A stretch of 64,000 nt of DNA. Origin: Anaerolineae bacterium. Lineage in GTDB: Bacteria; Chloroflexota; Anaerolineae; Anaerolineales; Anaerolineaceae. The stretch covers positions 1-64,000 of the forward strand of contig JABUFD010000007.1 of assembly GCA_013314735.1 (NCBI GenBank). The letters are read 5' to 3'. The notes under the pieces are model-generated. The model ran no database searches. It was not told the origin of the DNA and saw nothing but the letters and a program-made list of their open reading frames with translations. Both the position numbers and the translations under genes were made by a program. Numbering within the stretch: the first letter of the stretch is position 1; every line of letters begins with the position of its first letter. Of the stretch, positions 2,421-5,280 are shown piece by piece.

Positions 2421-5108
2421 TTATTTCATGTTGTCGAGCAGTGACTGGATATACGGGATCGCCGCCCGCAGGGCACGGGCACGGTGGCTGATGAGGTTCT
2501 TATCCGCTTCGCTGATCTCGGCCATGGTCTTTTGCCGGTCGGGCAGCAGGAATACCGGATCATAACCAAAGCCGTTGGTGCCGCGTTCTTCCGAGATGAT
2601 CTCCCCTTCGCAGGTGCCGTCATAATAGCGGATGGTACCGTCTGGCCGTGCCAGGGCGATGGTGCAGGTAAAGTGCGCAGACCACGGCTGGGTTTTGCCT
2701 TTCAGTTCGCCCAGCAGGTAACGGCGCCGGTCGGCATCGGTGGCGTTGGGGAACGGCGCATACCGGGCGGAGCGAATACCCGGCCGGCCATTGAGCAATT
2801 CCACCTCCAGGCCGGAATCATCCGCGATCACGATCAATGGTTCCAGCAGGTCTTTGGCGGCTGCGAAAAAGGCGCGCGCTTTCAGGGCGGCATTTTCCGC
2901 GTAGGTGGCACCGGTTTCCTCCACCTCCAGGTTCAACCCCAGGTCCGAAGGCTGGTAAAACTCCAGCTGGTCAAAAAGGGGCATTTCCTGGAAGATGGCC
3001 TGAATTTCATTGAGCTTGCCTTTGTTATTGGTTGCCACCAGCAACGGCACCTTGCGGCGGATACGCTGCTGCACCGTGCTTTCAGTCAGCGCGCCGCTGA
3101 TGCCGTTCAGGCTGCGGGTTTGCCGATAGAGGTTGCCGGTGCGGTCCTTGGGCGCGATGCGCACCTGGTTGCGGCCATGGTTCTTCGAGGTGTACAGCGC
3201 ATGGTCGGCGGCACGCAGCAGTTCCGGCGGCTGGTCGCCGTGGATTGGGTAGCTGGAAATGCCGATCGACAGGCTCAATCCACTGATCTTGAACTCGCGG
3301 ATGAGGGGGTCACGGTAAATTTCTTCCACCGCTTTGCGCAGCACTTCAGCGCGGTGATAGGCGTCGGTGGGGTGCGCCTGGGGCAGGATGATCACAAATT
3401 CATCGCCACCGTAGCGGCAGATGATATCTTCCTGGCGCAGGTGATGTTTCAAAAAGCGGGCAATCGCCTTCAATACCAGGTCACCAATCTCGTGGCCAAA
3501 GGTATCATTCACATTCTTAAAATGGTCCACATCCATCATGATCACCGAGAGCGGTTCTTCCTGGCGCAAGGCACGGCGCATTTCATTCTCAAAAACATGC
3601 TCCATAAAGCGGCGGTTGTAGAGATCGGTGAGAGGATCACGGATGGAATGGTAGTGCAGGTCTTCGCGCAGCTGCAGATTGGCAATCGCCAGCGCCACCC
3701 GTTCGGAAAAATTGGATGCCAGCGATTTCACCGCCGGGGTGACTTCGTAATCTACCGGGAAGAACATCCCGCACAGACCCAGGGTTTCGGTCTGGGCGTA
3801 CAGCGGCAGGCATACCGTGGTAACATTCGTGTTGGTGGCAGCCACCTGGCTGCCCAATCGCTTGCAAATAGTGTCCATGTCTGACCTGCGCCCTTCGCGC
3901 CGGGCCTCTTCGTGGATGTTGTTAAATACCTGTTCCACTGCCACCAGCAGGCTGAACGGCCATTCGCCCCATTGGGTCATCGGCTGGTTTTCCTCAACCT
4001 TGTTGGTGATCTGCAGCATGCCGACCGCGGCGGGGAATAATTCAAGGGCCACCTGCTCCACCACCCCGAACAGTTCGGTCAGGTTTTTACTACGCTGCAG
4101 GCGCACACCCATCTGGTTGATGCTGGAAACCTCCACATTGCGCTGCTTGAGCGCTTCAACCGTACGCCGCAGGTTGGTCAGGTCGCGCCAGCGCAGCAGC
4201 ACAGCCGTGAACAGGTCTGCGCAGGAACGGGCGATTTGGATTTCGGTTTCATTCCAGGCGCGCGGTTTTTCAAAGGTCGACAACCGCAGGAACCCGCGCA
4301 GCCGGTTCTGAATGCGCAGCGGCATCATGATCGAGGACAGGGTTTTGGCACGCAGAATTTCCTCGCGCTCCACCGCCGCTTCGGGCGGCAGATCCTCCAG
4401 CCCCGCCATGATCACTGCCCGCCCTTCGCGCAATTCGTTGACCGACCAGATATCGCGCTCAAACTGCAATGGGCCGCGGTCGAGGTAATGCGAGGTATCA
4501 TATTCAGGTTTGCGCGCCCAGTTAAAGTAGTTTTCAGCAGCCAGTTCGCCGTTGTCTGACAGGAACCCCACACTGACCGCATCCACCGCCACCAGGTCGC
4601 CGATCTGGCGCAGGATTTCGATCACATCTTCCCGCTGGATTTCCTCCAGGGAAACCGAGCGGATCATAGTATTGGTGAGGGAAGCGAACATATGCTGGAA
4701 ATTCAACATCGAGCGCTGCGTACGTTCCAGGTCAGATTTGACCGAACGCACTTTGCGCAGCATCCATTTATTGAGAAGCGCGGTCAGCAGTTCCTCCGCG
4801 GAGATGACATCCGAAGGAATAATGAAATCCTGCGCACCCATCCGGAGGGCATCCAGGGCATCTTCAATCGTATCGGTCAGGTATACCACCGGCAGCAGCG
4901 GCCAATCCCGCACAATGTCAGCCACCACATTCAAACCCTGGTGGTGGTCCAGCAGCAGCAAATCTGCACTGCCCAGCGCCGAATGGTTTTGGGCATCCTC
5001 CGGGCTGGCGAAGAACTCCAAATCCAGCCGCAGGCCGCTGCCGGGCAGCGTACCCCGCACCTTCTCCCAATCCAGGTAATCGATAGCGATGCTAACCATC
5101 CGAAACAT
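2421..5108 (-). CDS. REC-like/GAF/GGDEF protein fused to a full-length RdgB/Ham1 XTP/dITP pyrophosphatase
   Basis: An 895-residue protein with two unrelated enzymes in one frame. Residues 1-120 look like a receiver domain (LLLLDHH at the phospho-acceptor position and VVYLTD later). Two GAF-like domains follow (about 150-295 and 320-480). A GGDEF domain spans about 486-660, with intact GGDEF at 567-571 and an RQED inhibitory (I-site) motif five residues before it, so an active, product-inhibited diguanylate cyclase is expected. From residue 687 to the end lies a complete RdgB/Ham1 domain (209 residues, normal length) with TNNKGK, DDSGLEV, GTNGFGYDPVF and SHRARAL, the residues of house-cleaning NTP pyrophosphatases that remove dITP/XTP. 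The ATG at 5108 has GGAG upstream; a TTG at 5132 is possible. There is no Shine-Dalgarno at the domain junction (GTG at 3050), which argues for real fused translation. Confidence 0.9.
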   Translation of the reverse strand: MFRMVSIAIDYLDWEKVRGTLPGSGLRLDLEFFASPEDAQNHSALGSADLLLLDHHQGLNVVADIVRDWPLLPVVYLTDTIEDALDALRMGAQDFIIPSDVISAEELLTALLNKWMLRKVRSVKSDLERTQRSMLNFQHMFASLTNTMIRSVSLEEIQREDVIEILRQIGDLVAVDAVSVGFLSDNGELAAENYFNWARKPEYDTSHYLDRGPLQFERDIWSVNELREGRAVIMAGLEDLPPEAAVEREEILRAKTLSSIMMPLRIQNRLRGFLRLSTFEKPRAWNETEIQIARSCADLFTAVLLRWRDLTNLRRTVEALKQRNVEVSSINQMGVRLQRSKNLTELFGVVEQVALELFPAAVGMLQITNKVEENQPMTQWGEWPFSLLVAVEQVFNNIHEEARREGRRSDMDTICKRLGSQVAATNTNVTTVCLPLYAQTETLGLCGMFFPVDYEVTPAVKSLASNFSERVALAIANLQLREDLHYHSIRDPLTDLYNRRFMEHVFENEMRRALRQEEPLSVIMMDVDHFKNVNDTFGHEIGDLVLKAIARFLKHHLRQEDIICRYGGDEFVIILPQAHPTDAYHRAEVLRKAVEEIYRDPLIREFKISGLSLSIGISSYPIHGDQPPELLRAADHALYTSKNHGRNQVRIAPKDRTGNLYRQTRSLNGISGALTESTVQQRIRRKVPLLVATNNKGKLNEIQAIFQEMPLFDQLEFYQPSDLGLNLEVEETGATYAENAALKARAFFAAAKDLLEPLIVIADDSGLEVELLNGRPGIRSARYAPFPNATDADRRRYLLGELKGKTQPWSAHFTCTIALARPDGTIRYYDGTCEGEIISEERGTNGFGYDPVFLLPDRQKTMAEISEADKNLISHRARALRAAIPYIQSLLDNMK

Positions 5109-5254
5109 GCGATGTGTTTTCTCCAGCCCCAAACAGCAGTGAATGACAAAAAAGTCCTGTTATCAATCGATCATCAATTGTTTGATTATACCTGATATTT
5201 TCAAACGTCAAATTAAAATTTCCTGCGTCCCCGTCATGGCAGCAGGTGCCATGC

Positions 5255-5280
5255 AAAAAAGCCGGCGAACCGGCTTTTTT
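5255..5280. terminator. Bidirectional rho-independent terminator
   Basis: AAAAAAGCCGG (5255-5265), CGAA loop, CCGGCTTTTTT (5270-5280). It is symmetric, so it has a T-run on both strands. It lies just downstream of the sigma factor gene and upstream of the GGDEF-RdgB gene, so it should separate these two minus-strand units. Confidence 0.9.

Follow-up and report, generated by a model that had tools for sequence, protein, structure and literature searches.

The window, a stretch of 64,000 nucleotides from the start of contig JABUFD010000007.1 of an Anaerolineae bacterium, carries on its minus strand a single open reading frame in which a sensor diguanylate cyclase is followed by an RdgB/Ham1 pyrophosphatase domain (Table 1). 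The rpoD stop codon lies 216 bases upstream of the gene start. An earlier note on this DNA had described it as one uninterrupted frame, and both the coordinates and the reading frame bear this out: no stop codon occurs across 895 amino acids counted from ATG 5108, or across 903 if translation starts at TTG 5132. Upstream, a promoter-like site and a terminator-like hairpin were recognized by eye; a promoter scan that considered spacers of only 16–18 nt did not list the promoter-like pair, whose spacer is shorter. Because the hairpin lies between rpoD and the fused gene, the latter probably has its own transcript, separate from that of rpoD, as far as can be judged from sequence.

Table 1 Features of the fused gene and its upstream region in the window.
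Feature	Residues	Position	Strand	Basis and remarks
Fused ORF, REC-like - GAF - GAF-like - GGDEF - linker - RdgB/Ham1	1-895	2421..5108	-	895 aa
Terminator-like hairpin AAAAAAGCCGG-TTCG-CCGGCTTTTTT		5255..5280	-	by eye; between rpoD and the fused gene
Promoter-like site, TTGACG (5211-5206), 15 nt, TATAAT (5190-5185)		5185..5211	-	by eye
GGAG, Shine-Dalgarno (SD)-like		5121..5124	-	12 nt before ATG 5108; best duplex -6.4 kcal/mol
REC-like region	1-125	4734..5108	-	Response_reg below cut-off; weak PDB receiver matches
GAF domain	164-300	4209..4619	-	Pfam 34.5 bits, above cut-off
Second GAF-like domain (probable)	318-470	3699..4157	-	AlphaFold model; no Pfam match
GGDEF domain	489-648	3165..3644	-	Pfam 164.8 bits, above cut-off
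I-site RQED (RxxD)	558-561	3426..3437	-	sequence; 5 residues before GGDEF
GGDEF active-site motif	567-571	3396..3410	-	sequence; intact
Linker	652-687	3048..3155	-	36 aa; coding in frame 0; all start codons without SD
RdgB/Ham1 domain	689-884	2457..3044	-	Pfam 195.9 bits vs 22.5

The C-terminal domain is a full-length RdgB/Ham1 with all of its motifs, as had been claimed. The Pfam match spans positions 1–184 of the 186 in the profile (PF01725), TIGR00042 scores 160.4 bits against a cut-off of 145.35, and all residues that are invariant in an alignment of 22 RdgB relatives are present, including those of the conserved motifs TNNxGKxxE, EExGxTYxENAxxKA, ADDSGLEV, GFGYDPxF and SHR. Solved proteins of the family agree with this: E. 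coli RdgB and S. aureus Ham1 can both be aligned to the domain, and both match its predicted structure (mean pLDDT 94), the E. coli protein with ITP bound. A single Ham1 match was found in the genome, which is 95.5% complete; the check for another rdgB that the earlier note had proposed thus returned none besides the fused copy. The RdgB part of the gene (window positions 2421-3110, minus strand) and the RdgB of a congener also have in common a 5-residue insertion before ADDSGLEV that is absent in 20 relatives.

On the cyclase side, TIGR00254 recognizes the GGDEF domain with 182.5 bits against a cut-off of 37.4 (NCBIfam), and the structural matches of this part are solved cyclases such as DgcR, PleD and WspR. 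Profile match and sequence together confirm what had been noted here, an intact GGDEF domain with the I-site RQED. The description of the N-terminal region as REC-like plus two GAF domains holds in part. The first GAF domain stands, whereas the REC assignment is weaker than had been stated: Response_reg reaches 22.1 bits against a cut-off of 30.2 (E=1.8e-4, Pfam), the position of the conserved receiver Lys reads 'dfiips' in the best PDB alignment, and a Response_reg match above cut-off combined with a phospho-acceptor pocket containing the Lys is not found in the N-terminus, which is probably a pseudo-receiver. The second GAF domain is likewise weaker than stated, lacking a Pfam GAF match; the region is probably GAF-like, judging from its position, from relatives that share aa ~312-655 and from the AlphaFold model, in which it forms an alpha/beta domain of moderate to high confidence with a long signalling helix (aa 458-489) behind it. 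For aa 1-300 the pLDDT is mostly below 60 and the sensor fold is poorly modelled.

The earlier note had named a frameshift at about 3000-3100, where the two halves meet, as a finding that would undo the fusion, and we see no sign of one. A score of codon usage, for which the remaining long ORFs of the window served as the training set, gives frame 0 of the linker +0.45 bits per codon as opposed to -0.49 and -0.48 for frames 1 and 2, and throughout the gene frame 0 is positive and the other two are negative in nearly every 30-codon stretch, so that frame-0 codon usage runs on continuously across the linker. The GTG at 3050, singled out earlier as a junction codon without an SD, is present and its best duplex is +0.9 kcal/mol; that of GTG 3074 is +0.4 kcal/mol, and the scan of the linker start codons found an SD at none of them. 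The in-frame coding signal and the missing start signals make both a simple frameshift and a separate RdgB start unlikely, in agreement with what had been concluded about separate translation.

Two other accounts of the junction deserve consideration. In the first, an assembly or sequencing error has joined two overlapping genes. The complete fusion is known from one example in a single draft assembly of 13 contigs and, as a stop comes soon in both of the other linker frames, one indel would be enough to split the gene; yet the coding signal crosses the linker without a shift, the linker contains no long homopolymer, a split-off RdgB would depend for its start on GTG, TTG or a non-standard codon with no SD before it, and the congener discussed below likewise lacks an ATG or GTG start. 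We consider such an error very improbable. In the second, the fusion is translated and RdgB is also released, either by proteolysis of the linker or by weak internal initiation, comparable to the NIb-HAM1 of UCBSV, which makes some free HAM1 besides the joint product (PMC8893687). The linker is modelled without a confident fold outside one short helix, as such release might lead one to expect, but the want of an SD at every linker start codon speaks against initiation there, and we regard this possibility as unlikely. We favor, with reasonable though not full confidence, a genuine GGDEF-RdgB gene fusion whose product is one polypeptide, in which RdgB has kept its house-cleaning role and is tethered to a dimeric cyclase.

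Ham1 is present in 124 of the 147 genomes of the family, and a long frame containing it occurs only in the genome of the window, all the others having at most 267 codons. When the search was widened to the order, class and phylum, ~800 genomes more, a second GGDEF-RdgB fusion was not seen among the matches listed; for the order (400 genomes) the best ~150 matches were examined, and for the class and phylum sample most long frames were inspected. When the order was searched using a query with the last part of the GGDEF domain, the only genome to match from the first residue, among the matches listed, was that of the window. Long frames around Ham1 in 19 genomes were rejected as GGDEF fusions because their upstream parts are low-complexity or wrong-frame and give no GGDEF match, several of them resembling, by eye, ribonuclease PH in another frame. 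One further candidate (G740) was also discarded, as its alignment had entered GGDEF residues across stops and its rdgB is free. In GC-rich relatives (G576, G703, G815, G821 and others), rdgB lies within stop-free stretches of 400-650 codons that arise from reading the upstream DNA in the wrong frame, so open-frame length by itself is misleading in these genomes.

In all relatives with enough flanking sequence (13/13), rdgB stands alone and is divergent from yceD, with rpoD beyond; relative to these, the rdgB of the window is on the opposite side of rpoD. This divergent arrangement of rdgB and yceD-rpoD is conserved across the family and order and has been lost in the genus of the window. The earlier note had allowed that homologs that are always two genes would count against it. 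This is so in part: rdgB is separate in every fully readable relative, where it adjoins yceD-rpoD and not a cyclase. The fusion thus appears to have arisen recently and in one lineage, and not to be a conserved system.

In the congener, G001 (69% complete), rdgB lies at a contig end, and the frame remains open to that end, through the 19 codons that precede RdgB. These codons contain no ATG or GTG, leaving TTG as the sole possible start. The RdgB domains of G001 and the window are about 56% identical, have insertions in common that are absent in the other 20 rows of the alignment, and cluster together in the tree with 100/99 support. The 19 residues are similar to the linker of the window (shuffle p about 0.04 to 0.19), too short a stretch to prove a shared linker, and it is plausible from these sequences that G001 has the fusion too. 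A cyclase-like tail, 'KNQHRRIA', in another frame upstream of the G001 rdgB was rejected, being at chance level (p 0.78). Elsewhere in the G001 assembly, yceD-rpoD is without a neighboring rdgB, which instead lies on a different contig, next to a gene for an MFS-like transporter. As rdgB is missing beside yceD-rpoD in this genome as well, it has been relocated in this genus; no cyclase follows rpoD in G001, and the neighborhood of rdgB therefore differs between the two genomes.

Several of these observations would also fit a neutral event in which the two enzymes are joined yet independent, the joining having supplied a promoter to a relocated rdgB without any functional coupling: among the matches listed, the fusion does not extend past a single species or genus, rdgB no longer lies where it did ancestrally, and the fused gene apparently has its own promoter. 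Against this, both domains and the 36-aa linker retain a normal coding signature and, if G001 shares the fusion, it has persisted while the RdgB domains diverged to the extent given above. We hold a neutral origin to be quite possible, if somewhat short of probable.

In the reading that we favor, rdgB has departed from the ancestral arrangement, divergent from yceD-rpoD, and has been joined in frame to the 3' end of the gene for a sensor diguanylate cyclase just downstream of rpoD. The N-terminal sensor domains would set the activity of the GGDEF dimer, which would make c-di-GMP from GTP and be limited by product binding at the I-site, and the C-terminal RdgB would hydrolyze ITP, dITP and XTP to monophosphate and PPi as an ordinary RdgB does. 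GGDEF cyclases, acting on GTP, and RdgB, acting on ITP, dITP and XTP, both work as homodimers, so that a chimera with two-fold symmetry makes physical sense. The halves would most likely be linked by shared expression and by tethering, through which the RdgB dimer may hold the GGDEF domains together or stabilize their dimer, and ITP and XTP may be removed near the GTP-using active site. We infer both activities, the dimer geometry and the local clean-up from what is known of the two families; the cyclase and RdgB halves may also be functionally coupled. Coupling as tight as a single allosteric machine, in which c-di-GMP output would depend on RdgB being occupied by dITP, ITP or XTP, or clean-up on c-di-GMP, so that nucleotide damage would be tied to lifestyle signalling, seems quite improbable.

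RdgB might instead serve as a sensor, with GGDEF activity changing when the RdgB domain binds (d)ITP or XTP or turns them over, so that c-di-GMP reports nucleotide damage. The outputs of GGDEF proteins are commonly set by attached domains, and the structural matches of the RdgB domain include entries of KomBC, among them a dITP complex with NAD fragments, which give the sensor idea a structural precedent. However, the sensor domains of GGDEF proteins are usually N-terminal to the cyclase and act via the preceding helix, whereas RdgB is C-terminal here and lies behind a 36-aa linker. The fused protein itself has no match to defence models in PADLOC (PADLOC-DB from 2023), and with all conserved residues kept in the only copy found, the domain is most simply an enzyme. 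We think a sensory role for RdgB decidedly doubtful and retain the enzymatic one.

Compared with known systems, the C-terminal part resembles RdgB/HAM1 (PF01725, TIGR00042) in its complete domain, conserved residues and predicted fold, but RdgB/HAM1 is normally a free protein of ~200 aa rather than the C-terminus of an 895-aa signalling protein. Similarly, GAF, long helix, GGDEF, RxxD I-site and canonical motifs are those of sensor diguanylate cyclases (GAF-GGDEF, or REC-GGDEF as in PleD, WspR and DgcR), yet here the GGDEF domain has a further enzyme behind it, one that processes nucleotides. PRK02491/NF002698 also combines RdgB with an extra N-terminal region and is matched at positions 129-315 of the 328 in the model; to our knowledge that extension is not a GGDEF domain. 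KomBC (PDB 9v0g, 9xvc) offers a Ham1-fold protein with a dITP ligand that works with another enzyme, but there the proteins are separate, the partner is NAD-linked and the sequence is distant (24% or less). In UCBSV and related potyvirids, HAM1 is covalently bound to the viral polymerase NIb and its ITPase activity is needed in an ITP/XTP-rich host (PMC8893687). This is alike in that an ITP/XTP pyrophosphatase is attached to a nucleotide-polymerizing enzyme, but that enzyme is a viral RNA polymerase and the product is partly cleaved; common descent of the two fusions is not implied. The literature searched held nothing relevant on GGDEF with Ham1, RdgB or inosine triphosphate pyrophosphatase, nor on cyclases with ITP/XTP, in line with the earlier note, to whose author this architecture was not known as a described system. 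As far as tested, the GGDEF-RdgB architecture is new, and its parts are known and ordinary.

As a housekeeping enzyme RdgB is nearly universal, and few signalling enzymes of bacteria are commoner than GGDEF proteins. With its sole detected rdgB located inside a cyclase, this bacterium provides a natural test of whether c-di-GMP signalling is affected by non-canonical purine nucleotides, and the arrangement has a parallel in some plant viruses, where HAM1 and the polymerase are covalently joined. Were the halves coupled, c-di-GMP signalling would have gained a new kind of input; were they independent, it would be a curiosity of gene fusion. Finally, another in-frame Ham1 combination was seen in a draft genome of the same class (G526; locus L107, 2050-3417, plus strand), where a 456-aa frame with strong Pfam matches has Ham1 followed by ribonuclease III and a dsRNA-binding domain.
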